The notes beneath the pieces were generated by a model. That model had not been told where the DNA came from. It worked only from the letters and a program-made list of their open reading frames with translations, and did not search any database. Shown in pieces: positions 4,001 through 59,807 of a DNA stretch of 64,000 nt (the first letter of the stretch is position 1; each line of letters starts with the position of its first letter). The position numbers were made by a program, and so were the translations under genes. This stretch comes from Coptis chinensis (taxonomy: Eukaryota > Streptophyta > Magnoliopsida > Ranunculales > Ranunculaceae), in contig CM027381.1 of assembly GCA_015680905.1 (NCBI GenBank), forward strand, positions 67,631,501 through 67,695,500, read 5' to 3'.

Positions 4001-5009
4001 GCAGCTGTTCCACTTGATTTTCTTGGTCCACCATGTTCATCACAAAATCTTCCGTAACAGCCCCACTCTCGAACTGCTCATGCATCAGATCCAACCTCTT
4101 GGTTTCTTCCTCTACCTTGAACCTGATGTTACCAAAAGTCTCTTTATTCCACTTCTTCAAAACAGCCTTAAGACGCTTCAGTTTCTGAGTGAGAATGTAT
4201 AAAGAATGTCCTGATATTGGCTCCTGCCAAGATTCCATCACCACATCTTTGAACTTTGGATGGGAGCACCACATATTGAAGAACTTGAAGGGCATGTTGT
4301 TGGGTCGCGGGATACTGATACTACCCCCCATTAAAGGTGAGTGGTCCAAGCAAATTCTGCTCACCATCTTGTATTTCCATCCTGGGAATGTGGAATTCCA
4401 GTTCACGTTACATAGCATTCTATCGAGCTTGCCCAGAATTTTAAAATCTCCGACTTGCTTATTCCACCAAGTAAGCTGAAACCCAGAGTTGGGTACTTCC
4501 ATCAACTGGTTGTTATTCATGAAGTCTCTAAAGTCATTCATGGAGGCAGCCGTGGGGTTATTCCCCCCTCTCTTTTCCGAGACACTAAAGTAGGCATTGA
4601 AGTCTCCCATAATCAGCCATGGCAAATTTAGAGAGTTGATGGTTGATAGTTCTAACCAAAGGAGTCTTCTTTGCACGTAAAGGCAGTGGGCGTGCACAAT
4701 TGTGATTAAGACATTGTCAACCATAACTGTAATATGCTGATTCGAGAAGTGAATCAAATTGGGAGCTGAAATTGAATCCTTCCACATGAGCCAAAGGTTA
4801 GGAGTTCTTTTAAGATCCGAACTGGGATTGGAGTAGAAAGCACTACTCATTCCCAAAGATTGTAGAAAACTCCTGGGGAGATCAGTGGGATAAATCATCG
4901 GTTCTGCAATACCCACAATCTCCGGATCCCATTTATTGATAAGCTTGGACAGTCGATTCTGAGACTTGTCGTTTGCTATACCTCTAATATTCCAATATAT
5001 GCACCTCAT
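1040..5009 (-). pseudogene. LINE-1 ORF2 (endonuclease, RT, RNase H), broken
   Basis: The first recognisable block starts at an ATG at 5009. The endonuclease (about 4300-5009) shows WNIRG, the AEP segment, GDFNAYF and LDHSPL. Reverse transcriptase follows, with SSPGPDGF (about 3640-3670) in one frame and then DISQAFDTMDW, GLKQGDPLSP and FADDIFLF at 2717-3466 in another, so a frameshift lies near 3460. A zf-RVT-type segment, CCICKREEETIEHILYHC, lies in 1362-1838. Below it, VNADGELKG and a trace of VESDSSSMVKAF (about 1090-1365) are remains of the RNase H domain, with stops and frame changes. The domain order is that of plant L1-like LINEs. In an intact element the product would nick the target and reverse-transcribe the LINE RNA there. 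This copy cannot make a working protein. Confidence 0.85.
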
Positions 5010-5052
5010 TGAGAATATTGGAAATTTATTCGGTTGGATGGTGAAAGTCGAG

Positions 5053-7035
5053 TTATTCTTCCCGACCCTTAGTCCTAGATCTTGATCTGGACCTGGTGGC
5101 TGGAGGAATGTGAGACTGTAGCTGCCATTGTGGTTTGTATCTTTCTTTGTTGCTTTGGAGATGATCCTCCACATCCTCTTCAATCATATCACTCCAGTTC
5201 GATGATTGCGGAGAGGTAGGATCAGGAGGCTTAGACTCGAGTTCCCTCACCTATTGCTTTTGCACCAGAAGGTGCAGCACTTTCTCCGCCTTAGAGTCTG
5301 CTATGTTTAGTCCCACTGAAGTCTTATGGATACGAGATAGAGACTCAGATGTAGATCCTCCTCTCTCTGAAGACGGGCTGTTCCCATTGCGCATTATGAG
5401 TAACTCCTCCTCTCTTATATGAGGTGGTGGAACTACTGTTGCTACTCTCTCCGTTTGATATATCCCTTGCTCCTCTCGAGACTGCCTCGAAACACAGCCG
5501 TCTCGAGTCTGTCCTGAGGCACATTCCTTTCGAGTCTGTCTAGAATCCCAGACCTCGTTATTCTGCCCATAATCCCAGCCCACATCTCCCAGAGCCATAA
5601 GATCTGATGCTGCTACACTCTCCGTTTGATGGATCCATTCCTCCTCTTGAGTCTCCTCTCGAGTCTGCCTAGAGTCTCCGTCTTCGCGAGGCTGCCTAGA
5701 TACACAGACCTCACGAGTCTGTCTAGTGTCACAGGCCACATCTCCCGATACCAGAAGTGTTTCCCCCGGCACTTGTTCTGTAGGAGTTATCTCATGTTCT
5801 CTGTCTTTTTGCTGCTCCTTACCAGGTTCTACTTGGTCAATCTGAGTATCTCGATTCTCAGCATGTTGCTCATATTCAGAATCTTCTTGCTCCTGCTGCG
5901 TACCTCTAAGAACAGATGCGGTACTTGTATGAGGTTTTGGTACCTGGTCTGGGACCAAAATCTCCTTATCCTCAATAACATGAACCTCCTCCACTTCACC
6001 TAACCCATCAAACTTGTTTTGAATATCAACCCTCTAACCGAGGCTTTAGGTTTCCGGGATAGTCTCTCCTTGCTTGCTCTCTCTCTGTTTTCTTTTCCTC
6101 CCTTTTAAGCTGTGAAAAGTTATCTCCACCCTCCTTCGGGGGTGGAGTGGCATCCACCACCACCTCTTTATCCTTATTTGCTTTATCCTTATCTTTGTTG
6201 TGCTGCATATCCCTTCTAAGCTTCCTGCACTCCGTGACCAAGTGCCCAACAATTTTACAATGCGTGCACATTTTTTGGTAATTTCCCAACCTCGATTTGT
6301 TTGCCGGTTAAAATTCTTAGCTTTGATGTAGATTTGATCCGGGATAGGCTCTGACAGGTCCACATCCACTAAGATGTTAGCGTAGTACCCATACTCGCAA
6401 TTGAGTGTTTTTTCATCTATTTGCATTGGATAACCCACTCCACGTGCAATTGTCATGAGGGATTCGGGCTCCCAGTATTCCCCGTCCCCGCACTTCGACA
6501 AACGAATCCGCACCAAACCATGAGATTGTCTTTGGTCATGCGGATTGAAATTTGGGGACCATTGGCTGATTCACATAGGGTTCTTATCAAAGTCCCAAGA
6601 ACCCTTTGCCCAAACTCTGTTCAGATCATCCGCATTCGAAAATCTTAAGAATAGGAACCCCTTTCCGATAGGTGTAATAAGCCACTCGCCTGTTGGTTGC
6701 CAGATTTGGTTTGCTAAAATACGCACTCTGTCAAGCGAAACTTTTTGAAGGTCTATGCGTCCCACCAAGCAGTGTTTGCAGTATAGTAACCCTGCCTCAT
6801 AAGCCTTATCCGGTATTGTGACAGTGGGGTATTCTCCCATTTTTTCTGGAGTGGTCAGCTCCTAGAATTCCACTGGCTCCCATAGGTGTTGCTTTGTCAC
6901 AGCCGCATATGAAATCCTCTGTGATTCTTTAGGAGCTGAATCTTCAGCTCGAGCCTCGTTGGTGATGTATTGCATTGGTGGTTGAAGCTTTTCGTTGGTC
7001 ACCTTATGGGGGTTCTCAAACTCATAGATGTCCAT
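5053..7035 (-). pseudogene. LINE-1 ORF1 (gag-like, DUF4283, zinc knuckle), broken
   Basis: The likely start is the ATG at 7035 (MDIYEFENPHKV). A DUF4283-like RNA-binding region lies at 6571-6840 (GKGFLFLRFSNADDLNRVW) and a CCHC knuckle at about 6220-6270 (CTHCKIVGHLVTEC, spacing C-X2-C-X4-H-X4-C). A long acidic linker follows at 5251-5994, with repeated Arg-Gln-Thr-Arg-Glu-like motifs, and an Arg/Ser-rich tail (RSRSRSRTKGREE) ends at 5053. The pieces lie in different frames, and a stop at 5251-5253 separates the linker from the tail in the same frame. Proteins of this type coat LINE RNA in the element's RNP particle. The coding is decayed. Confidence 0.78.
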
Positions 7036-9057: not shown

Positions 9058-11618
9058 TTAGTAACAGAAAACAAAGCAAGTGTATGCGAAAGGAAAATTA
9101 CATATTTTACCCGAAGATGAACAAGAATCATCATCTGTGGTAGAGTCCGAAGTTGCGTCTTTGTCGTACAAGGAATTTTTTTCACTGCAAGTCAGTTAAG
9201 ATAATAAGAAAGAATATGCAAATACTCTAATCGAAATAAAAATAAAGAAAGAAAAATTTTCTTACCCATTCTTTAGCTCTTCTTCATTGTTTAGCTCTTC
9301 TTTACCCTTCTTATTAAGCTCCGGACAATTCCTTTTATCGTGTGACACTCCAACCTTGTTACATCCATTGCACCGCCTCCTTTTATATTTTTGTGCCTTT
9401 TTGAGTGCTTTCTCTTTATCTCCTTTAAGTCTTTTTCCACATCCTTTTGGTCTTGCTTGACTCGGTTCATGATAATTAATTGCCAAATTAGAATTCTTTG
9501 CTCCAGAAACTCCTACACTTGTATCACAACCAAACACTTGACTACTTTTCTCATATGGTGTTGCTACACTTGTATCACAACCAACCAACTTACTAATTTT
9601 TTCAAGTGCACCACTTAAAGCATCTGTAAACACTTTAGTTGCTTCTTCACTTTCGAGGGATTTATCAACTACAAGTGTTGACATTTGAATCAATTCATTC
9701 CGCTTCATTATGTATAATTTATTATCTTGAACCTCCATTCCACCATCATCAATGACTGCCCCTGACTTTGCAGTTTTACACCATCTCTTCAAAATGTATT
9801 GATTCGGCAACTTATCAAAATCATGCATCTTATTCAAATAAGCTAAAATATGCCTACAAGGGACCCCTAAGCTCTCAAACTTTTTACAAGTGCATGAAGC
9901 AAAATCTAGATCTTTTTGATAAGAAATTTCCCGCACTTTAGACTTTTTGGCCGCCATTTTTCTATGAACCTTATAAACGCAACACTTCTCATTCTCACTA
10001 ACAAGTACAAATCTATAATTCAAGCTCTCCCATAACTCATCTTGAAATTTAAAGAATAACTCATGTGTATAAACATCAACCATATGTACCAAAAAGCTAT
10101 GGGGCATTTTCATTTTGGTTTCTCAATCATATCTTTGTTATCTGCCATTAATTCTTCATGACGTTGGCGACAAGTCCCCTACCAAACTGAACCATAAAAT
10201 CTACCAAAGAATTTTCTTTTTGAAACATACATTTTGAAAATGAATGAGCTTTCATTTCGTTGACTACTTGACATACTTGCAGAGAAGATGTGATTCACAT
10301 GTGCGGGCACCCATTGTGATCGGATTTCGTACATCAACTCCAACCACTTGTTCTCATGTAAACCACTCTTCTGAAGAATACCATTCCACTTCAAGTCAAA
10401 CTCATCTTTCATTTCAGATCCCCAAATACAGTTTGAAAAACTCGATTAGTACTTACTATATATAACTGAATCTATTTTCATCGAAAATTTCATCAGTATG
10501 TGCCAACTGCAATACCTGTTGACAGAGTACCCAAAACTTTAGCATGTAAAACAAATAAAAAAAAAACATCTGCAAATTAATTATAAAAATAAATAAATAA
10601 ATAAGAAACCTGTGAAAAGTGGTTGGAAGAGTTTGAGAAATGGCTTTTGTCATTGCTGGATCTTGATTTGTAATAATCATCTTTGGGGGATTGCCTGACA
10701 TAGCTTCTAAAAATTGGTTGAACAACCAAATAAATGATTCTGTGGTCTCATCACATAAAAATGAACAAGCAAAAACAACTGTCTGACCATGATTATTAAC
10801 CCCAAACAGCGGTGCAAGAATCAAGCCATATCGATTAGTGTTGTAGGTAGTATCAAAGATAACCACATCTCCATAAAATTTGTATGCTCGTCTCGAGGTT
10901 GCATCAGCCCAAAAACAACGTGTAATTCTCTGTTCATCGTTTGTCTCAATTTTAAAAATGAAAGAAGGATTCCTCCCTTGTTCCAATTCTAAAAACTCAT
11001 AAAACATATCTCCATCATGGCCTTTCATCTTATTACGCTTGTCCCTTTCCTGGTTATTTAAATTTTTCAGGTGAAACCAATATTTTCTATCCCTCCCCGA
11101 CCAACTCCAAGAAGACTGAACTGCTGATGTTGTGGTATGTTTACCATGCCAAGTTGTTGTGTTAAACATTTTTGGGCACTGGAAACACCACGGTGAGATC
11201 TTAGAAGATGTACTCTTCGTGGGGTCGACAACGGGTGAGAATGCCCTTCAACAAATACAGTAACAACAAATGTACCAGAGTTTGACTTCGTCATAGCAAC
11301 TTTTGCTTTACAATCTTCTTTTACATTGCCCCGACACCTTTTTGTATCAACGTCTGCTATTTCTGAACTTTTTCCTTGCTTGTAACACACATATTCCTTT
11401 CTTACACATTCACCATCTTTCTTCCTTTCGGACCAACTACTTAACACCTGAATCCAAATGGCTTTGGCATAATTATTGTAGAAACCGTAGACATCATCAA
11501 GTGATTCAAACTCCTGTTCTTTTCTAGGTTTGGTATCATATGATACTTGGGGATTGTAAATGTGATTGGGTTTCCCACCTACACTCCCACTCTCAATTTC
11601 AAAATCCTCATTTTCCAT
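9058..11618 (-). pseudogene. FAR1/FHY3-type (MULE transposase-like) gene, broken
   Basis: The likely start is the ATG at 11618 (MENEDFEIES), just inside a possible 3' splice site. In order come a FAR1 DNA-binding region (11150-11560: EFESLDDVYGFYNNYAKA, CRGNVKEDCKAKVAM, GHSHPL), a MULE transposase core (10620-11000: FYGDVVIFDTTYNTN, IITNQDPAMTKAI), SSSQRNESS (about 10240-10270), a SWIM zinc finger (about 9850-9900: CTCKKFESLGVPCRH) and a C-terminal knuckle (about 9310-9370: CNGCNKV...HDKRNC). A frameshift lies near 11075, another between 10180 and 10113, and the segment after HRF (10610) is not family-like. A last exon may run 9184-9058 after an intron. Intact relatives are either MULE transposases or FRS transcription factors. 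No terminal repeats were found here, so it could be a MULE remnant or a dead FRS gene. Confidence 0.8.
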
Positions 11619-15322: not shown

Positions 15323-17634
15323 TTACAAAAAAATAGAACATGTTATTACGTTTTGAATCTTGTCCGGACAATTTCTTGAGTCATGTTTTGTAATCTTTTG
15401 GCACGTTTTACACAACCTTCCATTTTTTTTCTTCTTGGGCTATCTCCATACCAGACTTTATTCTCTTATTTCTCCTCTTTGTTTGAGAAATGTTGGGGTT
15501 CAAAATTAAAACCTGTGAAACAAAGGTTAAGGGGTTAAGCTTAAAATTAAATTTAATCGCGGTAAAAACAAGTGATAAGAAAATACCTCCACTACATCAA
15601 CTTTGTGCTTCTCGTTAGTTGAAGCCACCTCTTTAGTAATTCCTTTAGTAGCTCCTTCAATGAGAGTTTCCTTGCGCTTTGCAACTCCAATTGACAGTTC
15701 ACTCATTTTCTCTATGAAAAATGTGTAACTCTCAACATTAGTTGCTGCATCATATGCCAATTGAGTAGCAATCTTAATGCAATGGGAAACTCTTAAAGCC
15801 TCTTGGTTTCCATGACCATTCACTAATCCACAATCAAACACGACCCTGTAAGTGTTTGCCTTTTGTGTCCACCTCTTCAAAATAAAGTGAGATGGAATCT
15901 CTTCGACGTCATACCGCAGAAAAATCTTCAAAAGATGAGCGCAAGGTATACCCATAAACTTGAAATACTTACATTCACACTCAGCCTCCAGGGTTGTTCT
16001 ATCAAAACTCACTTTCTAAATATTGGTATTATGAGGCTTTCTTGATTTCAAGAAATAAGTTCCATTTCCGTTCCTGTCAACCATCTCTTCAATAATTTTG
16101 TAGTAGTTTCTTGCATTTTCTACCTGAAACTTAAATTTATTAAAAACATTTATTGTGTACATTTTGTCAGCATGCTTCAAAAGGAACTCGTTTCTACCCA
16201 CATTACGACATTTATGTTCAGTGTTGTAATCAAAGTCTCTTTCATGCTTGGCAATCAATCCTAAACTTCTTTCGTTACCATGAACAAATTGCATGAGAGT
16301 AGTCGTCAAACTAACAAAGTTATCATAATAAGAGTTCATTGATTCACTCCATCCAGTTGTGTTCATTCCAGCAAAGAAGGTGTCTAAGTGATAAACCCGA
16401 ACCCAATTTTTTCTTAACTCATACATTTCATTCAACCAACTATGCTCCACCAAATCGTATTTTACCATCAGTGCAGGCCACTTGCTTTCAAAATCATCTA
16501 TCCTATAGGATTTAAGAACGAAATTTAGCTCTGTCGCAAATGTGTTGTTTTTATGGTAGACATACCCCAACTTCTCTGAAAATTTATTTGAAACATGCCA
16601 AAAACAATGACGATGTCGTGTAGAGGGGAATACCTTAGCAATCGCTCCAATCATTGCCCCTGCCTTGATCGGTGAGAATCGGTTGGAGGCGACCACCCAT
16701 AGCTGCAAGCCATGTCTGAAATAACCACACAAATGTTTTCTCAGTCTCATCAAGCAATAATACACACCCAAATTGAATGGATTGCAAATGGTGGTTGACA
16801 CCAGTAAAAGGAGCAAAAGGCATTTCATAAATATTAGTCCGGTAAGTTGTATCGAAAGATACAACATCTCCAAAGTATTTGTACTGCACCTGAGACCGTC
16901 CTTCAATCCAAAAAAAATTCACTGCGGTACCACTTGGATCTAGTTGAACAATGTAGTAGAATTAAGGATTTTCTGCGCTCTTTTGCTTAAAGTAATCAAG
17001 TACAGCCGTCGCGTCATTTTATTTTGGTTTCTTTCTTGTAGCAGAATAGTTTTGACACATCTTTGAAGTAATTCCAATTGCATCCCCAGAGAAAATTGAT
17101 GCAACTTTTGTCACTGGTAAACCCTCATTATCAAAAATCTCTGTCAGGTTCTTTGCTGCTTCTGGCATAGATTTATTCGACCTCATTGAACCCCTCTTGT
17201 ATAGAGAAACCAAGCCATGACTATGGTTGTTTTCAACCAATGTAACTTTGTATATATTGTCGAGTTTTTTCTTTGCCAATCTCATTCTTGCTCTACAATC
17301 ACACCTGACAATCGAAGTGTTTCTTGATGTTCCTGACACTCCAATAGACACATCTTCTTTTTTGTTATGGATCCCCTCACGTGAACAGACCAAGAGATCA
17401 CTAGAAGGTACGTCCATATGTGATTGTCTCTTAACTACACTCCTAACACGTGTTTCAAATCCTTGTTGTCGACCATACTCTTTGTATGTAGTATTTCTTC
17501 GCTTCCTCGAAACTGTTAAACGACATCCCTACATACGGTGCTTCTAACAATTGTATGTCTTCGTTTGTGGCTTCAATTGGAAAAGAATCCACTAGTACTA
17601 AATCGGGAACATCGGAAGCTCCATTCAAAGTCAT
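15323..17634 (-). pseudogene. FAR1-type MULE transposase, broken
   Basis: The likely start is the ATG at 17634 (MTLNGASDVPDLV). The FAR1 DNA-binding region covers about 17100-17540 (GMSFNSFEEAKKYYIQR, then CDCRARMRLAKK and VENNHSHGL). The catalytic core at 16400-16920 shows FGDVVSFDTTYRTN, FAPFTGVNHH and RHCFWHVSNKF in two frames. A SWIM finger lies at about 15915-15985 (CECKYFKFMGIPCAH), and a terminal knuckle near 15363-15415 (CKTCQKITKHDSRNC) is in another frame again. Frameshifts near 17450, 17020, 16650 and 15450 and a stop near 16965 rule out a functional product. Its place between 267-bp inverted repeats identifies it as the element's own transposase rather than a domesticated FRS gene. 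Its divergence from the copy at 9-11.6 kb suggests a different family. Confidence 0.85.
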
Positions 17635-19089: not shown

Positions 19090-21368
19090 ACGGATCCTTT
19101 TGAACCTTTCGAGGGTGATGATTGGCAGTACACAAACGACATTGGCAATGAAGGAGAAGAACCCGAGGAAGTAGAATACGATAGGGGAGAAGACAGTGGG
19201 GGAGAAGAACCCGAGGATATATGTCGCGTCGACTGATAGACATCCCTATGTACTAGAGTATCAAATGAACGACTTCGATTGGCAATTTGCACCCGGTGAA
19301 GCACTTGATATGGAAGTTGTATCTTCTACACGTGATACAAAACACGTGTCGAGTGCAGTGGCTAATACTCAGGTAATTAATTAGTTTTGATTAAATATTT
19401 TGAATATTATGCATTAATTAGTTGAGTTAGACCAATTAATTATTTATCTTATACTTATTTTTTTTTTTCATAATATCAGCATATTATTGACTACCGAGTT
19501 AGATCGACTTTACATGGTTTTAGAGAGTGGTGGAAGGTTATTAAGAGTTTGGATGAGTTTGTACATATTAGAGATAGTATTTTGTATACACCTTTGGGTC
19601 TTTTGGTTGATGTGGATTATGAAAAGGCTGATTGGGCAGTGGTCATAGCTTTAGTAGAAAGATGGTGGAGTAGAACTCATATATTTCATTTTCCTTGTGC
19701 GGAGTTAGGGTTCACACCACTAGACTTCACTATGATTTTTGGGTTGAGTATCGGTATAGGCCAACCAATACATTTTCATACAAATTATGAGAATATGGAT
19801 AGTATGCTTATGAGTTTTCCTCGCTTAGATGCGGATGCTTATGATTCTTCTGGTATTAAGCTATCTCATATTAAGACTGCATATATGGAACCCCTCTTGG
19901 ATCCTGATACACGAGTGGAGTTAGCTTTGACTGTTCTACCTGGTAGTGAGGGTGCTGATGTATATGTTAGGGCTTTTTTGATGTTTTTTATTGGGCATGT
20001 TCTGTTTCCCAATGGTTATTCTACAGTACGACTGGAATATTATGCTTATGTATCTGATTTGCATGTTATGAGAGATTATGACTTGAGTAACTCAGTATAT
20101 CCCACATTGATAGCGGTGTTAGATAAAGCTTCACAGATATTCGGAAGTAGAAGTCCTCAGATTGCAGGATTCACAGGACTTTTAGAGATTTGGTTTTATG
20201 AGTACTTTCGAACTCTTTGTCCTAACATAGACATGATTGTTGATACTTGCCCTAGATTTGGTAGTTGGTCAGGGCCTCACTTGACATGTAACAGGGGGTA
20301 GATTAGAAATAATGTCTGTATGGCTCGTGCTCAAATTGATATTAGATCATTGTCATCTATTGAGTGGAGACCTTGGCGTTTGACTACTGCCTTTGACGAT
20401 CCAGTTGTGCAACATGCTTGTGTGTTGTCACGTCATAGAGTTGTTTTTACCGCACGTGACTGTATGGTTTGGTACTGTGGCAACAGATGTTGGAGGCAGA
20501 TGACTGGACGTTATGGAGTTCCATGTGCTCCCATGCCAGATGTTAGTGATGCGAAGTTGTGGGGTAGAATTCAAGTTCATGAAGTTTATGCCAGTGATAG
20601 TCCTTGGTCAGATGCGTCTTCTTTTGTTGTTGAGCAGACTGCTGATCAGTATTATAGATGGTGGAACCGTGTCTCCATGGGTCCGTTGTTACCCCCTGTT
20701 GGTCGGGCTAGCAACTTCGAGTTTGTGGGCCTGGAAGGGATGAGACGTGAGCTGCGTTTTCTCATCCGCCACAGCCTGTTTACAACCCACAACCTCTGAA
20801 TGCATATCATCCAGCTCCTGTGTTTGCCAGTAATCCTCATATGTTTGCCGTGTGTGGACCTGATAGGGAGGCTACTTACATTTTCATTCCTGAGGTGCCT
20901 CGTGCTCGTTGCCATGAGTTAGAGCCGCAGATTGATCAGTATACCACGGTGAGTATAGTTATTTTATTTTTCTTATTCATTATATATATATAATATGTAC
21001 TCACAATGTATTTTCTTAGATTTTCAGGCTGAGATTCGGGAAATATATGAGAACCAGATTTGTATGTTTGATGGGATGAGGACTACCGTGTATCATTATA
21101 GCCAAGAAAGGGAGGAGGCATATTCTCAACATATCAATAATCCCAACGTGCGTATGACAAGACTCGAAAAGTGTATGAGGATATTCAGCAGGTGTACACG
21201 CAACAACATCAGGGATATGAGGAACTTCAGGCTGAGGTAGTTAACCTTCGTGCAGATAGAGAAGATCTTGATTCTCAGGTTAGGAACTTAGAGGAGCAGC
21301 TTAGGAATATCCAAATAGAGAGAGGAGAGGGATCGAGTGGTAAGGGGCGTAAGAAGAGAACTAAATAA
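19090..21368 (+). pseudogene. PMD (MAIN-like) protein gene, broken
   Basis: Exons appear to be 19090-19372, 19480-20948 and 21028-21368, with GT-AG borders. Exon 1 is acidic (GEEPEEVEYDRGEDSGGEEP). Exon 2 is the mobile domain: WWKVIKSLDEFVHIRDSILY, PCAELGFTPLDFTMIFGLSI, FLMFFIGHVLFPNG and IDIRSLSSIEWRPW. Exon 3 is a coiled coil ending in basic GRKKRTK. Damage: the start codon is ACG at 19090, where copy 2 has ATG (27831); a frameshift near 19217; TAG at 20299-20301; frameshifts near 20765 and 21170-21240. Host MAIN/MAIL1 proteins act in silencing and genome stability, but the role of element-borne versions is unknown. Confidence 0.78.
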
Positions 21369-28987: not shown

Positions 28988-29121
28988 TGTTAGAAAAATG
29001 GATTTGCACAAATCCATTGAGATATGAATGAGTAATTTGTCTCCTAAGTTATCCCACATTGAGATGAAATGGGTTTCTCTTGAAACATTACGTAAAGTGA
29101 GAAAAATCTTTTCAAAAGGAT

Positions 29122-29280
29122 GCACTGGTTCGAAATAGTGCATTATGCCAAAAAGGTGCAACATTTCGAAATGTGCACTGGTTCGAAACAGTGCATCATG
29201 CCAAAAATGTGTGACCTTTCGAAATAGACACTAGTTCAAAACAGTGCTTTATGCCGAAATGGTGTGACCTTTCGAAACAT
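29122..29280 (+). repeat. Three 53-bp tandem repeats in the solo LTR
   Basis: Units start at 29122, 29175 and 29228. Each carries CACTGGTTCGAAA-like, CAGTGC, ATGCC and TTTCGAAA motifs. They lie about 70-230 bp upstream of the TATA box, where enhancer repeats occur in LTRs. TTCGAA palindromes recur in the array. Confidence 0.85.
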
Positions 29281-29615
29281 GTGACTTTTCAAATAGTTGT
29301 TTACTTTTTACCAAGAGTCACTGTGTTGTTTCGAAGAGGCACCACTCACCTATAAATAGTGGATGAATTTGGAGAGAAAGACACACCAGATCACACAGAG
29401 TTCTGATCTTTCTCCCCCTGTTCTTAGTCAAATACTATGTTGTGTTCAATGATTCTATAGAATTGAAGTGCTAGCTTTTTATAGAAGGAAATCCGTTCTA
29501 TCTTGGGAGACAGTTTTCCATCAACCTTCAAGCACCGTGAGGGGGAAAATATGTCTTAAGGACATAGTGATCATCACTAGGCTTAGATTTAATAATTGGT
29601 AAATTAAGTTCATTC

Positions 29616-29631
29616 ATTGAACTAAAAGATT
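29616..29631. repeat. Target duplication of the 5S-LINE (left)
   Basis: ATTGAACTAAAAGATT at 29616-29631 matches ATTGAACTAAAAAATT at 36050-36065 in 15 of 16 positions. The left copy abuts the first base of the 5S sequence; the right copy abuts the LINE's A-tail. Confidence 0.88.
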
Positions 29632-29751
29632 GGGTGCGATCATACCAGCACTAATGCACCGGATCCCATCAGAACTCCGCAGTTAAGCGTGCTTGGGCGA
29701 GAGTAGTACTAGGATGGGTGACCTCCTGGGAAGTCCTCGTGTTGCACCCCT
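29632..29751 (+). rRNA. 5S rRNA, full length, fused to a LINE
   Basis: The 120 bases match plant 5S rRNA from GGGTGCGATC to GTTGCACCCCT. The internal control regions are intact: A box AAGCGTGCTTGGGCG, intermediate element GTAGTA, and C box around GGATGGGTGACCTCCTGGG. The ends pair (GGGTGC with GCACCC), as in mature 5S. It is single, not part of a tandem array. It lies inside the LINE's target duplication, beginning at the base after it, so it is part of the inserted unit. It could still be transcribed by RNA polymerase III, as its promoter is internal; a TTTT stretch follows at 29753-29756. Confidence 0.95.
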
Positions 29752-29957
29752 ATTTTGGTTAACATCAACAGAGCATGTTAAGATAAAGCAAGTAGAGAAG
29801 AATAGTTAAAAATGGGGACCAACTCTTGGGCGACCAGGAGTGCTATAACTTAAGATGCATCTGGTTCCTGTGCTCCTTTTTCCTTCCCGCTTTTAGTAAA
29901 AACTGGTTTGGTGCAATTATCTTATCTTTTCTGCTTTCTAAGTTCCTTTCCTTATCA

Positions 29958-30113
29958 GGTAAAATCCTCAACTGAAGACAGTGTGAGTTCTGGTAAGGAG
30001 AGATTCTAGGGGCTTAGCTTACAAGTTCAGTTCTCCGTGGATAATATTGTTTCTCATCTTTGGTGGTTGCTTGCTGGTAAAATCCTCAAGTGTTAACACC
30101 GCGTGAGTTCGAG
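29958..30113 (+). repeat. Two GGTAAAATCC-hairpin modules in LINE-2 leader
   Basis: GGTAAAATCC occurs at 29958-29967 and 30076-30085. Each is followed by an imperfect palindrome bounded by CTCA and TGAG and then GTTCTGG (29987-29993) or GTTCGAG (30107-30113). The second ends about 53 nt before the ORF1 ATG. They match the four modules of LINE-1. Confidence 0.8.
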
Positions 30114-30166
30114 TAGGAAGATAGCGCACTACCTCTTTGATAACGTAGTTGGATACGCTTCTAGAG

Positions 30167-31819
30167 ATGGATTCGCAGCTAGATAATCTTCAGAGTTTTC
30201 CCCCACTCACAGCTGCTCGCGAGCAGGGATGTAATCCATCCTTGGGTAACAATCAGATGCAATATAATAATGTGAAGGCTACATGTAACCAGGCGTCGAA
30301 TTGGAGCTCGCTTTTCCAGGGAGGAAATGCATCTACATCAGATACCTCTCTCCAAAGGTTTGAGCTTGATATGATTGAGAGGGTTACACAAGTGCCGATG
30401 GACTTGAGGTGGAAAGGTCTCAATGTGTGGAAAGAGTATGTTGTGGGTTTTTTTTTCTGGAACAGAGGCTTCCATATCCGGTGGTGAAGGAGTTCTTGAA
30501 AAAAAAATGGAAAACAAAAGGTGTATATGAGATGGTTGCTGATGCTGACCTGTTTTATTTTAAATTTTCTAATGAGGAAGATAAGAGGAAAGTGTTAGAA
30601 AATCCCCAGATATTCATGGCAGGGAAATGCTTCATAGTTACTCAATGGACTCAGGACATTGAGAGGAGGAAGGATGTTGTTAAAGCTATACCAATCTGGG
30701 TTAATCTTTATAATGTACCAAAGGTGCTCTGGACTGGAGAGGGGTTGGGTTTTTTAGCCAACAGAATAGGAGAGCCATAGAGGATGGATGAAGCCACAGC
30801 AGCACGGAAGAGATTACTGTATGCGAGGGTTTGTGTTCTAGTGGAAATTACAGCAGAGATGCCAGATTCTTTTGAAATAAATATGGGTGGAGAAGATGTT
30901 AGGAAAATCTCACATAGAATATGGGTGGGTTCCAAAAATGTGCGACTATTGTAAAAGGTTTGGACATAAGACTGTCGACTGTAGCAGTATAGGGCATATG
31001 CCTAGGGTTGACTCTCGTGTGGAAACTAGGGTGCACACAACTGAGATTACAAGTGTGATTAGTACTACTTCAGGGGAAGAGAACACAGTGCACAATGCGG
31101 CACCAGTCACAACCTCAAATAATGAGATAAATCAAGAAGACAGAGGTGCTCAAACTGTGGAGGGTGCTACTGGGGGAACAATGAATGTCATAAATCTGGG
31201 AATTGGAGGTTTAAATGTAGCTGGGGTGGATTTGAACAGTCCAGAGAATACCATGGGTGAAGACAATGGAATGAGAGTGGATGATAGTGAGGAAACAAGG
31301 ATAAATGCAGAGGATTCAACAGTGGGATTGGATGAGATGAATGCAGTAATGGAAATGGTAGAGAATGAAGTGAGGGCTATAGTGTTAGCAACATCAGCTG
31401 AAGTACCAGAAGAAATTGAGAAGAGGAAGGAATATGAAAGCGACAGTGAATCAGATGTATGTCAGAGTAATATGTTTGCGGCCTTAGTACCTTTTGAGAA
31501 CACTCGGATTGATGAAATGCAAACAAATCCAGATCCACTGATGCACTATGAAGTTGAGCAGAATGAATATAACAATCTCCTTGTGGCAGCCAGAAATGGG
31601 GACTTGTCTGATGAGGAGTCTTCGGAGGAGGAAACTATCTATTTCAAGGATAAGAATAATATCCCCCTGTCTGTATCGAATTCACCTGCTTCTCCAAAAG
31701 GTGGTGTGACAACGAGGAGTAAAGGTCAAACAACTAATAAGTCTAGTGGTAAGAAAAGCAAAGGAAAGAAGAGTAGGGGACGCCCCAAGGGTTCAAAAAA
31801 CAAAAACTCCAATCTATAA
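30167..31819 (+). pseudogene. LINE-2 ORF1 (gag-like, DUF4283, zinc knuckle), frameshifted
   Basis: Translation would start at the ATG at 30167 (MDSQLDNLQSFPPL). A DUF4283-like domain follows (FYFKFSNEEDKRKVLENPQI, about 30555-30615), then a CCHC knuckle at about 30939-30981 (CDYCKRFGHKTVDC), an acidic low-complexity region, and a basic tail (GKKSKGKKSRGRPKGSKNK) ending at 31819. A run of eight T near 30450 marks one frameshift. TAG at 30778-30780 ends the second segment, and the knuckle segment resumes from about 30887. Its role would be LINE RNA binding. Two or three point changes separate it from an open frame. Confidence 0.82.
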
Positions 31820-31821
31820 AT

Positions 31822-34800
31822 GATAGGACCAATTTAAGGCCCGGAATGTGAGAGGAGCTAATGACCTGTTGAAAGCAAATGGAAATAAATAAGGTCGACA
31901 AAGTAAGAAGTTGTGTATATTTGGGCTGCTAGAAAACGAAAGTGAAGCAAGCCAAGTATGACCTCATAAGACAAATATGTTGCCCTACATGGGAACATAC
32001 TAATAACTATGATCGGAGTCACTCGACGGGCGACGGATATCTTTGATCCGTGCTCAGAGTCGAGTTCTTCTTCGAACGGACACATCGGATCAGTATATAC
32101 ATTGTAGAGTTACATATCTTCTAGAACCAGAAGAGTTCTTGCTCACAGTAGTATACGCTAGTAATGCTCCACGGGAAAGACTAGTGTTATGGAAGGATTT
32201 GCATGGTATACACAAATCGATTCAGATGCCATGGTGCGTAGTAGGAGACTTCAATAACATTTTGGCTGCAAATGAAAGGATAGGAGGAGATCCTATGCAT
32301 CCGAATGAAGTGACTGATTTTAGTATATGCATACAGAATGCGGGACTCTCAGATATAAAATCCACTGGGTTCTTTTACACTTGGTGGAATAAATCCATCG
32401 GATCAGCCAGAATCATGTCGAGGATTGATAGATGTTTGGTTAATAGCCTGTGGCTATCTCGATACCCGCAAACTATAGCTGATTTTCTGCCACAGGGTGT
32501 TTCAGATCACTCCCCTATTCTCATTACATGGAACGATTTTAAGAGAAAGCCAACACCGTTCAGATTTTGCAACTTTTGGGTTTATCAGGATGAGTTTAAA
32601 AGTATGCTAGAGGAAGTGTGGGCAACTCAAATCTATAATAACCCGATGTATAAACTGATGCAGAAACTCAAGTTACTAAAGGAAAGGCTTAAACCATGGG
32701 CAAGAAGGAACTTCTCCAATTTACATGAGAGAGTAATTGTTGCTAGGCAAAATTTACAGGATGCACAAGTCTTTGGTCCAAAATAAGTCCGATGATCGAT
32801 GTTGGGAGCACAGAAAGGGCTGCAATGCAGCGTACATAAGTCTTGCACGAAAGCGTAAGGAGGATATGAGGCGTAAAGCGAGGAGGAGAAATGGATGATA
32901 GGCGGGGATAGATGCACCAGTTTTTCTTCAATTCATTGAAGGAAAAAGCCGCCAAGAAAGGTATTTGGGCAATTGCAAACGACCGGGGGTTACATTTAAA
33001 ATTCGAGGCGGATGTATCGAGATATCATTGTTGAGTATTTCGAGAAAAGATGATGGGTACCGAGGCTCCGCCCGCAGAGAGAAAAGTTTTTCATGGATTT
33101 GAAAGTCCGAAATGTCATCGAGCGAACATGAGATTTCTACTTGATCACGAGGTTCTGAGGAGCAGAGATTAGGCAGGCTATCTTTGAGATGGAGAATAAT
33201 AAAGTGCCTGGTCCGGATGGGTTTAATCCGTTCTTCTTTAAATATTGTTGGGAGACAGTGGGAGAGGATGTAATAAGTGCCGTTAAAAATGTGTTCAGAT
33301 GCTTTAAGATGCCGAGGGGTATCAATGCTACCTTCCTTTGCCTCATCCCAAAGGTGAGCAACCCTTCAAGAGTGGAGGAATTTCGACCCATAGCACTGTG
33401 CAACACGATATATAAGTGCATATCGAAAGTAATCACCAATAGAATACAAATGGTGATATATGAACTTGTACATGAGAACCAGTGTGCTTTTATCCCAGGT
33501 AGATCTATTCAAGATAATATTCTCATGGCCCATGAAGTGTTGAGAGGATATGATAGGGCGCATGGCACACCCGGATGCTTTCGATTAAACCGGATATCGA
33601 AAAGGCATATGATATGGTTAGTTGGAAAACGATCCTCCTCTTGTTGGAGAAATTTGAATTCCCTCGAGAAGATCACGAAGATGGATTCATATGTGTATTA
33701 GTCTTATTATTTCTGTCTCCGGTGAATGGGGCTCGAAAGGTTTTTTTGGGAGAAGAGGTTTGCGTCAAAGGCGACCCTATGTCTCCGTATATTTTGTGCT
33801 AGTCATGGAAATTTTGGGAATTGTGATCAGGAAAAGCATTGGATCCAGGCTCATGCAATATCACTCTAAATGCAAAAGGAATATGTTGACACATTTGGCC
33901 TTTGCTGATGACGTTCTCATCTTCTGCAAAGGGGAAGCAACCTCTATAGAAGGCCTTAAGGACTGTTTACAAATATTCAGTGAAGCTACTGGACTCAGCA
34001 TTAACCCGCATAAGACTACTATAATGACGGGAGCTATGTTTCATGATGATGCACGAGCGCTGGCCTAGATACTGGGTTTGGAACTTGTGAAACCTCCAGT
34101 AAGATATCTCGGTCTCCCACTCATTTCTGCTCGACTTGGAATCAAAGAGTGCCAACCATTGATTGAAAAGGTCACAGGCCGCATAAAGGACTGGAAAGCT
34201 AAACTACTATCTCACGCAGGCAGACTACAGCTGGTCCTCGCTGTTTTGAGTTCTCTAAACATCTATTGGGCCAGAACTTTCATACTTTCCTCAAAGCGAT
34301 CTTTGGAACAAATTGAGAAAATATGTGTCACCTTCCTATGGAGCCGAACCCGAATCCAAAGGTGTGTACATCAAGCAAGCTTGAGTACCATATGCAAAAC
34401 AAAGGAGGAGGGTGGCCTAGGGATGATGAGTATGGAAATATGGAACAAGGGCGCGCATTGTGGGCTGCTGTTCAAGATCGCAAGTAAAGAGAGTAGCGTC
34501 TGGGTCGAGTGGATTTGGAGAAATCAGTTGGAGAATAAATTCTTGTGGACTATGCCGATTCCCAGAGATTGTTCTTGGTCATGGCGCAATATCTTGAAGT
34601 GCAGAAAGGAAGCAAGAGAGCTAATCTGTTATTCAATCTCAAATGGGGAAGACACACTCTTATGGCACGACATTTGGTGCAGCAGCAGTCCTCTCTTACA
34701 CAATTCACAAGCGGTAGCTGAAATCATGCTTCCCCTCAATGCAACAGTGAAGGAGCTATTGACTAATGGAAGATGGAATGACATTGTAAATAATATATAG

Positions 34801-35848
34801 TGCAGTACCCTCAGAGAAGATATCTTGAGTACCAAAGTGAATCGACACATAGAGAGAGATCGAGTAGTATGGACACCGCATCATAGTGGATCATTCACAC
34901 GACGAGCGGTCGCATCACGCCCACGAGAAGACATGGGGGTAAGGTTAGATGGCAACGTATGGTATGGGGCCGACTGGTTATCCCTAGTCATTCCTTTACT
35001 GCCTGGCAATTATTCTCGAACAGCCTCTCCACTCAAGATAGGTTAGTTTACAAGAAGATTCTAACACATTCATCTTGTTGCCTGTGTCAGCAAAGTCGGG
35101 AATTCTCAAATCACCTTTTCTTTGAATGCTCCTTCTCTCGAGAGGTGATCAATGGCATTAAGATAGTCTTGGGTATTGGAACTGATTGCAGAAGCTCAAA
35201 TAGAGAATGGTCTTCACTGCTAAAACTTTGCAGAGGGTCGAGCCAGGTGGTGGAAATCTATAAGAGTTACATATGTGCAATAGTTAATGGGATTTGGAAG
35301 GAGCGAAATGCACGTAGGTTCTCCAATCATAGTAGGCCAGCATCAGCAGTGTTGAAATGCATTCTGAGAAAGATGAGAAGGTATCTACAGGTGAAGGTAT
35401 CGGAAATGGAGGACACGGACGTCGCCCGAAGGCTAACTCAGGATATCGGGATCCAGGTGAAGTTTAAAAGTGCGGCACAACAGTTTTGTACCTGGGAACC
35501 ACCTGAACAGGATAGATTCAAATTGAATACAGATGGGGCTGTTGCAGATAATGGTACGGGTCATGGGGGAGCAATCAGAAATAGTAAGGGTGAGTTATTG
35601 AGAGCATTCACTGGTAGTGGAGGAGAGAGGTCAGTACTCTTCCAAGAATTGAAGGCCATCGAGATTGGGTTGAGTATATGTTTGGAAATAGGTTGTGTAC
35701 AAGTGGATGTGGCATCAGACTCTCTACAAGCAGTACAAATGAGTAACAAGGGAGCCAAGCCGCCATGGAACTGTCAAGATGTGCTAAACCATATTTTAGA
35801 TATAGCGTCCACAGTTGTTAAGTTGTACTTTCTCAAGATATGTTTTTA
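31822..35848 (+). pseudogene. LINE-2 ORF2 (endonuclease, RT, zf-RVT, RNase H), frameshifted
   Basis: The endonuclease starts with NVRGAND and LLETKVKQAKYD near 31845-31950 and continues in 32043-32786 with VVGDFNNILAANERIGG, TWWNKSIGSARIMSRIDR and VSDHSPI. Reverse transcriptase shows NNKVPGPDGFNPFFF (33189), EEFRPIALCNTIYKCISKVI, AFIPGRSIQDNI, KPDIEKAYDMVSW and LAFADDVLIFCKG (33895-33930). zf-RVT (CCLCQQSREFSNHLFFEC) lies in 35078-35140. RNase H has NTDGAVADN, QELKAIEIGL and VASDSLQAV at 35525-35730, so the D-E-D residues are present. Frameshifts near 32000, 32790, 33600, 33750 and 34800-35000 break it. In intact relatives ORF2 nicks DNA and copies the LINE RNA into the nick, the step at which a switch to 5S RNA could occur. 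Confidence 0.85.
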
Positions 35849-36049
35849 GGGAGTCTAAACAGAGTGGCCGACCACCTAGTCAGGCCTATCTATTGACCAT
35901 GGTTGTAATATTGTGTATGTTGGTCCTCCAATAGGTAGGGAGTTGTATAATTTCATTGAGGAGGATGCAAGAGGAACCATATATGTAATGAGTTGGATGA
36001 TGAATACAGTGAGGGTCATCACTAACCCTATTTAATAATTTAAAAAAAA

Positions 36050-36065
36050 ATTGAACTAAAAAATT
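36050..36065. repeat. Target duplication of the 5S-LINE (right)
   Basis: ATTGAACTAAAAAATT follows the A-tail (36042-36049; its first A may belong to either). It matches 29616-29631 with one G-to-A difference. Confidence 0.88.
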
Positions 36066-36175
36066 TGTTTGTTTGTTGAAATTAAAGGTTTGCTCATGAT
36101 ATATTTGTTATATCAATTTGATTTCTTGTTTACTTAACAATAAGTATATTTTTGGAATAGATTTCCTACAATTAC

Positions 36176-55733: not shown

Positions 55734-58700
55734 ACACACCTGAAATTGCCGGGGAATTAGTTCCTCCATGGCAATTCAACAACTAAAGGACTTGGTATGA
55801 AGGTATGACCCTAATATAGTTTGTCTCTCAGAAACTAAGGTAGGCTATGATAGAATTAGTAGGATCAGCAGAATGGTTAAGTACAAAGGTTTCTTTAGTG
55901 TTCCAGCTGTGGGGATTAGTGGTGGGCTGGCTATTCTGTGGAAGGAAGATGTGGATTTGGTTATAATGGGAGCAACTCAGAACCATGTGACAGGTAAACT
56001 TAATAATTATCTGTGCAATGAATCTTGATATTTCTTCTTTGTGTACGGTGAACCTTTAGCTTGTAATAGACATAAAGTCTGGACGGAGCTCAGGGATGTA
56101 GCTTCTCTGATCCCTGGGCCTTGGTGCCTATTTGGGGACTTTAATGCTATAACCTCTTTGGATGAAAAGATAGGGGGTAGAAGTATTTTTAATAAAAGCA
56201 TGATAGAGTTTAATGAGTTGATTAATGATCTGGGGCTTATTGATATGGGGTTTAAGGGTCCTAAGTATACTTGGAGTAATAATATAGCCCCACAGGACCA
56301 TATTATTGAACGGTTAGATAGAGCTATGGCAAATGATGCCTGGCTTTTGATGTTTCCCCATATGCAAGTAAACAATGTTGTGAATGCTACTTCTGACCAT
56401 CTGTCTATTATTATTAATCTTAGAGCAAAGGATGATAATATATCTGAGCATGGAAAACCCTTTAGATTCTATAATATGTGGTTCTCTGATAAGTCCTGCA
56501 TGTCTGTTATTGATACTGCTTGGAAGTCTATCACACATAACATGCCTGATATGAATGTGATTATTAAGCAAAAGTTGACACAATAGCATCTTGCCATTTG
56601 GAATAAAAAAGTTTTTGGCAATATTTTCACCAACATAAAAAAAGTGAATAAAGAGTTGGAGGATGTGCTGAAAAAACCCTTCTCTCCAATCACTTATGAG
56701 AGATCAAAGGTTTTAAAATCTGAACTCTTTGATTGGCTGGTTAAAGAGGAGAGTTTTTGGAAGCAAAAATCCACTACTCACTGATTGAAAGATGGAGGGA
56801 GAAACACTAGATTCTTCCATCTCTCAACCATATATAGGAGAAGGAAGAACATGATTGAGAAGTTAAAAAAGCATGATGGGGGTTGGAGCATGGGGAGAGC
56901 TGAAGTGGGGGAGAACATTAACACCTACTTCAGAGATCTCTTTAGCTCTGACCATCCTAAAAAAAATGACAGAATGCTCAATTTGTTCCATCCTTGAATT
57001 TCTAAAAAGGAAAATAATATCCTGACTGTAGTTCCTACCAATGAGGATATTTGGAGAGTGGTAAAGAAAATAGGGAGCTTGAAGGCTCCTGGGCCTGATG
57101 GGTTCCAAGATTGTTTTTATCAACAGACTTGGGATATAGTGGGGACTAGTATCTTTGCCTTTGTGAATGATTTTTTCATTAAAGGGGTTTTGAATCCCAC
57201 TTTTAATGAAACATTTATTGCTCTCATTCCCAAGATGAGCAACCCTGAGGCTGTGGAAAATTTTAGGCCTATAAGCCTCTACAACTTCTGCTATAAGGTG
57301 ATTTCAAAAATCTTAGCCAATAGGCTTAAGTATCATTTGAATAAAATTGTCTCCCCTTTCCAGGGGGCTTTCATAAAAAGAAGAAACATAGGGGATAATA
57401 CTGGTTTGGCTTGTGAGTTGTTTCATCAAATGAAAAACATGAAGGCTAAGAATAAAGGCTATGTATCCTTAAAGATGGATATGGCTAAAGCCTATGATAG
57501 GGTTGAGTGGTCTCTGATAGATAATATTTTTGAGAGGCTGGGGTTTAATAATAAATAGAGAACCATGATTCAGCAATGTTTGTCTACTGTGACTTTTCAA
57601 GTTCTTCTCAATGGTAGCCCTTTAAATAAGGTTAGCCCTGAAAGAGGTCTCAGACAAGGGGATCCCCTGTCCCCTTACCTTTTTATTATCATGTCTGAGG
57701 CTTTGTCCAGGATGATTGCCAAAGCTAAGATGGAAGAGAAAATTCATGGGATCAAGATTAGGAGATCTTCTCCTTCTATTACTCATCTTCTCTATGCTGA
57801 TGATCTTATTTTATTCACTAGAGGCAATCTTGAGGATGGGGGATATCTCAAGAATATCCTCCAAGAGTACTGTGATGCATATGGACAACTTATCAATTTT
57901 GATAAGTCTAGCATGTTCTTTAGTAGAAATATCAATTTTAGAAACAAAATAAAGCTCAAGAGATTCTGGAAAATGAGAGTGTTTGACCCAAAAGATAAGT
58001 ATCTGGGGATACCTATTATGCTTTTACAAAAGAAGGCTGAGGACTTTGACTACTTAGTAGACAAGATTCATAGTAAGATCAAAGGGTGGAAGGCTAAGGT
58101 TCTATCACAGGCTGGTAGGGATACCCTGATCCAGTCTGTGGAGCTATCCCTTTGTATGCTATGGCTACCTATATGCTCCCTGTGTCTATTTGTAATAAGA
58201 TAGACAAAGCATGTAAGGATTTTTTCTGGCATGGAACTGAGGACTCAAAAAGTGTCTATACCATTGGGTGTGACAGCTTATGCAAACCCAAGTCTCAAGG
58301 AGGCTTAGGGTTCAGGAGAATGAAGGATATAAACATAGCTATGCTAGCCAAGCTTCCTTGGAAAGCAGCTACTAACATAAACTCTATATGGACAAAAACT
58401 CTAGCAAGCATATATGGAAAAAACTGGATTGGGGACATTTGGAAACCTCTTGGGTATGCCTCCTATTTCTGGAAAGGCATACACAGAACTTTTAATATGA
58501 TAAGTGGGGGTTTGATATGGGGGATACATAGTGGAACCTCTACTTCTATCCTGGATGATTCTTGGGTTTTAATTAATGGAAAACCTAAGACTCTAAGGGA
58601 GTTAGGAGTGGAGAATTCCAGGCTGAATGACCTTCATGTGGCTGACTTGTTTAAGGAAGATGGGACTGGATGGGATGAGGCTAAGATCACAACCTTATTC

Positions 58701-59807
58701 CCTCCCCATCTGGCTCTGAGGATCAAAGAAGTGATGATTAGACCTTTCGGCCTTGGCAAGGATATGATGGTGTGGAGTGAGGACAAGGCTGGGAAGTTTA
58801 CTGTGAAGTCTGCCTACAAATTTATTACTAAAGATAAAGATGTAGGGCAGAGCTCCAGTTTCAATTCCTAGACCTCTAAGCTCCTCTGGAAAACCAAACT
58901 ACCAGCCAATGTTCAACTGTTCCTATGGAAAGTTTACACGTATGCCTTACCTATGGGGGATAGGCTGGAGATAAGGAATATGGTGGGGATTTTTTTGTCC
59001 CTTGTGTCTAAAGACTATAGAGACTGGTAACCACCTGTTCTTTGAATGTGAATGGGCTAGAGCCATGTGGTTCACCTCAGGTTTAGGGTTGAGAATGGAG
59101 AGCCAAGGCAGCAATAATACCAAAGCATGGGTTACTAAATTCATTAGCTGGTGCCATAGCAAGAACCAAGTGATAGTGTAGGCTGGCATTAAAGCTTGCT
59201 ACCTGTTGTACAACATATGGATAACAAGGAATGAAGCCAAGTTTGAGCATAGGAGGCCTAACAGAGAAATGACTATCAGAAGAAGTGAGGTGGAGGCAGA
59301 CAAGTGCTATGCAGGACTGGTTGCAGAAAACTCTGATACTAATCTTTCTAAACACCCTAGCAATTACTTAGAACAAGTTGAGCTAGACTCTTTAAATTCC
59401 TTATTTCCTATTATCCCTAATGATTGTATTATCATCAGGTTCAATGCTTCCTTCAAGACCACAACTGGATGGGCAGCAGCTGGCACCATTGCCTGGGACA
59501 ATGAAGGCAAGATAGTAGGAGCAGCACTAAGAAGATTCAAAGTTAGGTCATCAGAAGAAGTCGAAATGGTGGCAGCTGAAGTGGCTATTTTGCTAGCAAA
59601 AGCCAAAGGGTGGAATGCAGTTCTGATTGAAGGAGACTGTGTAGAGGTTATCAAAGCTTTGAATAGTCCAACCTGCTCTTGGGTTTTTGCATTTTAAGGG
59701 ATTATGTGTTAAACTTGAGTTCCTCACTTTTGTTTTGTAAATTTAGCTGGATCAATAGATTTGTTAATGGAGAGGCACACAAGCTGGCGAAATGGACTTA
59801 CCAGTAG
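55734..59807 (+). pseudogene. LINE-3 ORF2 (endonuclease, RT, zf-RVT, RNase H), broken
   Basis: The endonuclease runs from about 55740 (NCRGISSS, VCLSETKVGYDRI) through LFGDFNAITSLDEKIGG, IIERLDRAMANDAW and ATSDHLS. Reverse transcriptase has SLKAPGPDGFQDCFYQQTW (57076), ENFRPISLYNFCYKVISKIL, KMDMAKAYDRVEWSL, GLRQGDPLSPYLFIIM and LLYADDLILFTRG (57790-57828). zf-RVT (ETGNHLFFECEWARAMWF) lies at about 59020-59075 and RNase H at 59430-59807 (IRFNASFKTTTG, EVAILLAKAKG, LIEGDCVEVI, NGEAHKLAKW). The first catalytic Asp of RNase H is Asn (FNAS). Frameshifts occur near 58140 and in the T-run near 58990. Nearly all stops stand at expected Trp codons. Confidence 0.83.

Follow-up and report, generated by a model that had tools for sequence, protein, structure and literature searches.

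A complete 5S rRNA and an L1-type LINE within one insertion in Coptis chinensis, a probable template-jumping chimera

How did a complete 5S ribosomal RNA (rRNA) come to stand ahead of a long interspersed nuclear element (LINE) in a plant genome? The question is raised by a locus of Coptis chinensis in a 64-kb stretch of contig C5 (the window) from an assembly of 935.6 Mb; plain coordinates below are window positions on the + strand unless marked (-). Positions 29632-36049 are a single insertion made of a 5S rRNA with a TATTTT trailer, a 49-base spacer, a decayed L1-type LINE and a short A-tail. An initial annotation had described a 5S rRNA followed directly by a LINE inside one target duplication; it was right about these two parts and missed the trailer and a third piece between them. 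In our reading, which we consider very probable, the element is a decayed tripartite retro-chimera that arose in one insertion through template jumping by an L1-type reverse transcriptase.

The left target-site duplication, ATTGAACTAAAAGATT (29616-29631), directly precedes the 5S and is matched at 15 of 16 positions by the right one, ATTGAACTAAAAAATT (36050-36065), which follows the short A-run at the other end. Such a match was reached in 0/300 shuffles of the flank, and the + strand of the 64 kb contains no further 16-mer within two mismatches of the left duplication. The A-tail is nine bases long (36042-36050), its final A being common to the tail and the right duplication. With the left duplication ending at 29631 and the 5S starting at 29632, the 5S begins at the very next base, as had been annotated.

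The DNA on either side belongs to one dispersed repeat, which reaches the 5S border on the left (29400-29631) and continues beyond the right duplication (36066-36170). Among the best 40 of 1664 candidate copies, the window included, the 39 others are 91-95% identical. Nine of these 39 were compared with the left flank of the window joined to the sequence after the right duplication, and all nine carry the site empty: a single alignment spans the join over 303-341 bases (87-96% identity, some with small gaps), and the duplicated sequence is present once in each, matching at 14-15 of its 16 bases. Because 9/9 copies of the host repeat are empty at this site, the 5S and the LINE reached the target together and neither pre-existed there. 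The proposal that the 16-bp duplication bounds one 5S-LINE unit is confirmed by the shuffles and the empty sites alike, and a 5S already lying in target DNA free of the insertion, the finding named at the outset as fatal to it, was seen in none of the nine copies. The locus has two of the features of a LINE template-switch chimera: a single target-site duplication encloses the 5S and the LINE, and a cellular RNA forms the 5' part in its full length.

The 5S itself (29632-29750) matches model positions 1-120 of 120 of Rfam RF00001 (113.9 bits, E 2.4e-24) and is the single RNA match in the window at Rfam gathering cut-offs. It is identical to 5 of the 33 distinct full-length copies from the genomic 5S arrays, and because this identity covers the whole 5S its internal control region is intact. 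These 33 copies comprise 29 distinct bodies; the arrays lie at 51.34-51.52 Mb of C6, on C8 and on C9 (16 of the loci L003-L020). The 5S of the window is followed by TATTTT (29751-29756), as it is in 30/33 array copies. Beyond these six bases the arrays read TATTTTGCAA or TATTTTGCAT in 29/33 cases (GCAA or GCAT; one of the 30 has more T), and the window departs from the array sequence. Since the trailer is kept and the array sequence is lost after it, the 5S part ends not at its mature 3' end, which had been the first annotation and which the presence of the trailer rules out, but past it, at a run of four T (T4) that we read as a terminator of RNA polymerase III (Pol III). Running from its first base through T4, it has the extent expected of a copied Pol III transcript.

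The LINE (29806-36041) has its own 5' end, beginning TTAAAAATGGGGACC: its four closest relatives (93-98% identity) match from 29806-29812 on and have unrelated flanks. It starts at the family 5' end and so is not 5'-truncated. Its first open reading frame (ORF1) is represented by a DUF4283 remnant (30484-30777, Pfam E 3.1e-18) and its second (ORF2) by remnants of an endonuclease (Exo_endo_phos, 32088-32510, E 6.3e-5, with 23.3 bits just under the cut-off of 24.5) and of a reverse transcriptase in two broken frames (RVT_1, 33345-34029, E 3e-9 and 5.5e-12), with a zf-RVT domain (34926-35147, E 2.4e-17) and an RNase H-like RVT_3 domain (35526-35810, E 2.2e-9) further on. An ORF1 with DUF4283, an ORF2 with endonuclease and reverse transcriptase and an A-tail form what we take to be the marker set of plant L1 elements, and judging by this domain set, its endonuclease sub-threshold, the window LINE appears to belong to the plant L1 clade. 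ORF1, ORF2 and the A-tail are therefore all there as annotated, as remnants: several frame breaks interrupt both frames, and the tail is only nine bases long.

The 5S and the LINE have the same orientation and are not joined directly, since 49 bases intervene, 33 of them from elsewhere; the element is a three-part one of 5S, short foreign piece and LINE. In place of the LINE leader that had been thought to follow the 5S at once, the trailer is succeeded by four unassigned bases, GGTT (29757-29760, without strand), of which the first G could be 5S-derived, and then by an exact 33-base match (29761-29793, E 4e-8) to C3:80334168-80334200 (-), the only genomic match of this 33-mer besides the window. 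Twelve further bases (29794-29805, without strand) lead to the LINE, and a genome search found no second copy of them. An origin of the spacer (29757-29805) as LINE leader is ruled out, as the four closest relatives of the LINE match only from 29806-29812, and so is an origin as 5S array spacer, as the arrays mostly have GCAA after TATTTT. The source on C3 is found some 85 bases beyond a possible stop codon, in antisense to the frame concerned (frames read by eye), so that on our reading the 33-mer would be antisense to a putative 3' untranslated region (context L064).

The joining of 5S to other sequences seems to recur in this genome. A genome search with 5S gave at least 400 matches, among which, as listed, the window and 15 other dispersed copies lie outside the arrays; two tandem 5S copies on C6 (L063) were taken as an array remnant and left out of these 16. 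Six of the 16 are joined in sense to a LINE (the window, L008, L017, L052, L054 and L056, the assignment of L054 and L056 resting on short nucleotide matches), two to a short interspersed nuclear element (SINE) resembling transfer RNA (tRNA; L051 and L055), one to a short A-tailed stub with an interrupted A-run and a 17-18-bp duplication (L057), and two to other transcript-like sequence (L002, which is A-tailed, and L061). The partners thus include unrelated LINEs, a SINE and an A-tailed stub. In 12/16 copies the alignment starts with the first 5S base, and the 3' ends, read by eye, fall at T4 in 9/16, within the trailer in 5/16 and no further than the mature end in 2/16. L052 was assigned to a LINE by BLASTP against another LINE of the window; L058 had no match to the window LINE. 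At E 0.1, Pfam gave no domain for L052, L053, L054 or L058, and for L061 only a weak one of unlikely name.

The second 5S-LINE, L008 (C2:17499429), carries the same 125 bases of 5S and trailer, ends at the same point (as does L002) and continues into a different LINE, which has its own 5' end and a tail of 25 A. Between trailer and LINE lie 33 to 49 bases for which no second copy was found; of its seven closest relatives, six begin at query positions 50-56 and one at 34. Its duplication is a perfect 17 bp, one base from the 5S, with two A shared with the tail. When duplications were sought at 12 loci with 300 shuffles each, L017, L052, L002 and L073 had one matched in at most 2/300 shuffles. 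That of L082 is weak (9 bases, 4/300), and L077, at 0/300, has a repetitive and hence ambiguous flank and was not counted. A scan with a junction pattern gave 58 matches, against 8 with a reversed control pattern; 8/17 of the junction-pattern loci examined have no 5S alignment, and none of the 17 was added to the 16. The same 3' fragment of 5S (nt 61-125) occurs at L074 (C3:7068720-7069600) and L081 (C9:66182950-66183830), and because the surroundings at these two loci are nearly identical, this join has been duplicated or carried by a repeat.

A 5S-headed SINE family was considered and rejected, a small one being still conceivable: among the best 40 of 1423 candidates, found with a SINE query that itself included 5S and so favoured copies carrying it, only L051 and L055 match all of the 5S that the query contained. 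Two further SINE matches start inside the 5S, at C4:63983751-63983903 in its last 14 bases and at C8:97440470-97440614 in its last 6, and each is a possible truncated 5S-SINE join. Upstream in L053 (C2:105010650-105011650) a 5S fragment (nt 11-38) precedes the same SINE, beside a second full 5S.

The joining process probably extends beyond 5S, for example to U6, of which we inspected the best 20 of 43 genomic matches. A TCCCACATC-like element, which we take to be the plant U6 promoter element, lies upstream of 12/20 and is absent from 8/20 (by eye). L102 (C6:6433516-6434057) has U6 joined to the SINE of L051 and L055, with the antisense 3' end of a 5S just upstream, and is possibly a three-part U6/5S/SINE chimera. 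L099 (C5:65732155-65732689) and L104 (C5:65704016-65704549), which look like copies of one event, each have a promoter-less U6, a short A-tailed stub and, by eye, a 16-base near-repeat of the left flank; L103 has tRNA-like sequence after U6.

According to the reading we favour, L1-type LINE machinery would have nicked a copy of the dispersed repeat, and target-primed reverse transcription would have started at the poly(A) of the LINE RNA and copied the whole of it through to its 5' end. The growing complementary DNA (cDNA) would then have traversed a short foreign third template, of which 33 bases are known, and switched to the U-tail at the 3' end of a primary 5S transcript, which would have been copied to its first base, before second-end joining left the 16-bp duplication. 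We infer that the reverse transcriptase moved from one RNA to another at the joins, and that RNA rather than a DNA patch was the source of the 33-base piece. Of the template switch originally proposed, the single insertion is borne out by the 9/9 empty sites; joining at the RNA level is the best reading, and the jump itself is what we infer.

Several observations weigh against this. The target site, C/ATTGAAC, differs from the TT/AAAA given for the L1 endonuclease in PMC13174262. Of the 49 spacer bases, 16 have no source; the other 33 run antisense to the putative gene at their source, an orientation hard to square with a plain RNA jump, compatible with a DNA patch and somewhat in favour of the patch. 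Of the 16 dispersed 5S copies, five (L053, L058, L059, L060 and L062) have no assigned partner. A duplication was not found for L051, L055 and L083 in the shuffle test, nor for L054 and L056 in the flanking stretches examined, and in L002 and L017 the duplication match lies partly in an A-run. In L002, L052 and L017, moreover, 17, 21 and 81 bases, respectively, separate the duplication from the 5S, which means that the last template is not in every case the 5S. The three extra pieces all end in a T run, and they might be further templates.

Could the three parts instead have been carried by one RNA, formed by read-through or ligation and reverse transcribed in a single pass? We consider this improbable. 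An intact 5S terminator stands at the join, partners of different kinds start at the same 5S end, and RtcB-type ligation requires a 3' end bearing a cyclic phosphate together with a free 5'-OH; neither 5S nor capped LINE RNA offers these, so that a ligation step ahead of reverse transcription is less likely. The 49-base spacer could still derive from sequence flanking a source copy since lost, and the bases without a second copy between trailer and LINE in L008 would fit the same history; for the window, however, no second copy of the junction was found, and 33 of the spacer bases come from a distant locus at which no LINE was seen in 2.4 kb read by eye. RNA ligation is also named as an open alternative for U6 in PMC13174262. 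An origin in two separate events, a 5S pseudogene first and a LINE beside it later, is conceivable in a genome that has dispersed 5S copies and is nonetheless very improbable, as one duplication encloses both parts and the nine empty sites have neither. A later LINE would, besides, have duplicated the sequence before its own start, and what follows the A-tail repeats the sequence before the 5S instead.

We give almost no credence to the idea that the locus belongs to an active LINE family in which the 5S serves as Pol III promoter. A 5S that is identical throughout to 5/33 array copies, with its internal control region intact, speaks for it, but the frames of the LINE are broken, T4 stands at the join, and a genome search with the junction (29745-29830, very common words skipped) returned the window copy alone. 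No 5S was found within about 1.5 kb upstream of any of 29 other copies of the LINE family (among 40 other listed matches), a test that did detect the 5S of the window copy as positive control. Several copies sharing one junction, the mark of a propagating 5S-headed LINE or SINE, were thus not found for the window junction, and there is no sign of a 5S-headed LINE family that shares it. As to whether the locus is a one-off or one of many, the window junction is single, and separate 5S-LINE junctions exist elsewhere. Features upstream of the gene matter for plant 5S genes; in the arrays TATAAA lies within 45 bases in 24/33 copies, ATA[CT]AAA is present in 30/33 and C stands at -1 in 26/33, and the left flank of the window has neither ATA[CT]AAA nor C at -1. 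Because of the terminator at the join, these absent upstream features and the lack of any daughter copy found, the suggestion that Pol III could launch new copies is not supported.

Other remnants lie in the window. LINE remnants with reverse transcriptase and endonuclease (2717-5183 (-)) and with reverse transcriptase (57559-58871) are accompanied by a Mutator-like element (MULE) transposase remnant (MULE, SWIM; 9262-11247 (-)), a sub-threshold MULE trace (16016-16918 (-)) and a frame with a plant mobile domain (19474-20301). A 53-bp tandem repeat of 3.1 copies (29120-29281) precedes the insertion by some 350 bases.

The empty sites show that a plant L1-type LINE and a 5S entered the genome as one insertion, as in the chimeras of mammals and a fungus. 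That the 5S repeatedly ends at its terminator suggests access of the enzyme to freshly transcribed 5S RNA, and we put forward tentatively, with slightly less than even confidence, that U-tailed primary Pol III transcripts, chiefly 5S, are a habitual landing place for an L1-type reverse transcriptase running off the end of its RNA. If so, complete sense 5S heads with their internal promoter would repeatedly be placed on LINEs, SINEs and other transcripts, unlike human 5S, which would give plants a continuing source of new 5S-headed elements and leave a natural archive of template jumps from end to end. Insertions like that of the window offer a route by which Pol III heads could come onto plant retroelements, countable in any assembled plant genome.

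The 5S-derived SINEs, presumably of the SINE3 type, are like the window element in having a 5S rRNA at the 5' end and being moved by LINE machinery. They differ in forming propagating families, whereas here a junction shared by two loci was seen only in the fragment pair L074/L081. In PMC13174262, 5S is named as a SINE component. Cassandra, a terminal-repeat retrotransposon in miniature (TRIM), is another plant retroelement with 5S promoter sequence, but its 5S lies inside the long terminal repeats (LTRs) of an LTR element (PMC10853983), whereas a single 5S heads the non-LTR element of the window. A Cassandra-type LTR origin is ruled out by the one 5S in 64 kb, the non-LTR domains and the A-tail.

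Template jumping by LINE reverse transcriptases is known from mammals (PMC13174262) and fungi (PMC2104539). In Magnaporthe, Gogvadze et al. (2007) described 33 bipartite chimeras and one tripartite chimera (PMC2104539). The WEIRD/Mg-SINE/MGL chimeras of Magnaporthe grisea resemble the window element in that different transcripts are fused in sense, with 14-bp direct repeats enclosing the tripartite case; they differ in their partner RNA (WEIRD instead of 5S), in jumps reported to occur within the first template, at GCC sites, where the window LINE was read to its 5' end, and in the middle piece, which in the window is 33 bases matching one other genomic place (PMC2104539).

A plant 5S-LINE chimera was not found among the titles and abstract openings of open-licence papers listed. 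Human U6/LINE-1 and 5S/LINE-1 chimeras share with the window element a small RNA on the 5' side of L1, a single insertion and target duplications, and they too arose separately and usually spread no further (PMC13174262). The 27 human 5S/LINE-1 insertions catalogued in 2026 are typically antisense and truncated, whereas the window 5S is sense and complete and keeps its trailer (PMC13174262). In this it is like human U6 segments, which are typically sense and full-length; the L1 joined to them is frequently 5'-truncated, truncation being the usual and not the sole form, whereas the LINEs of the window and of L008 keep their own 5' ends, in a plant host (PMC13174262). The window case is an event of the kind described in human and in Magnaporthe, here in a plant and with 5S behaving as U6 does in human (PMC13174262, PMC2104539).

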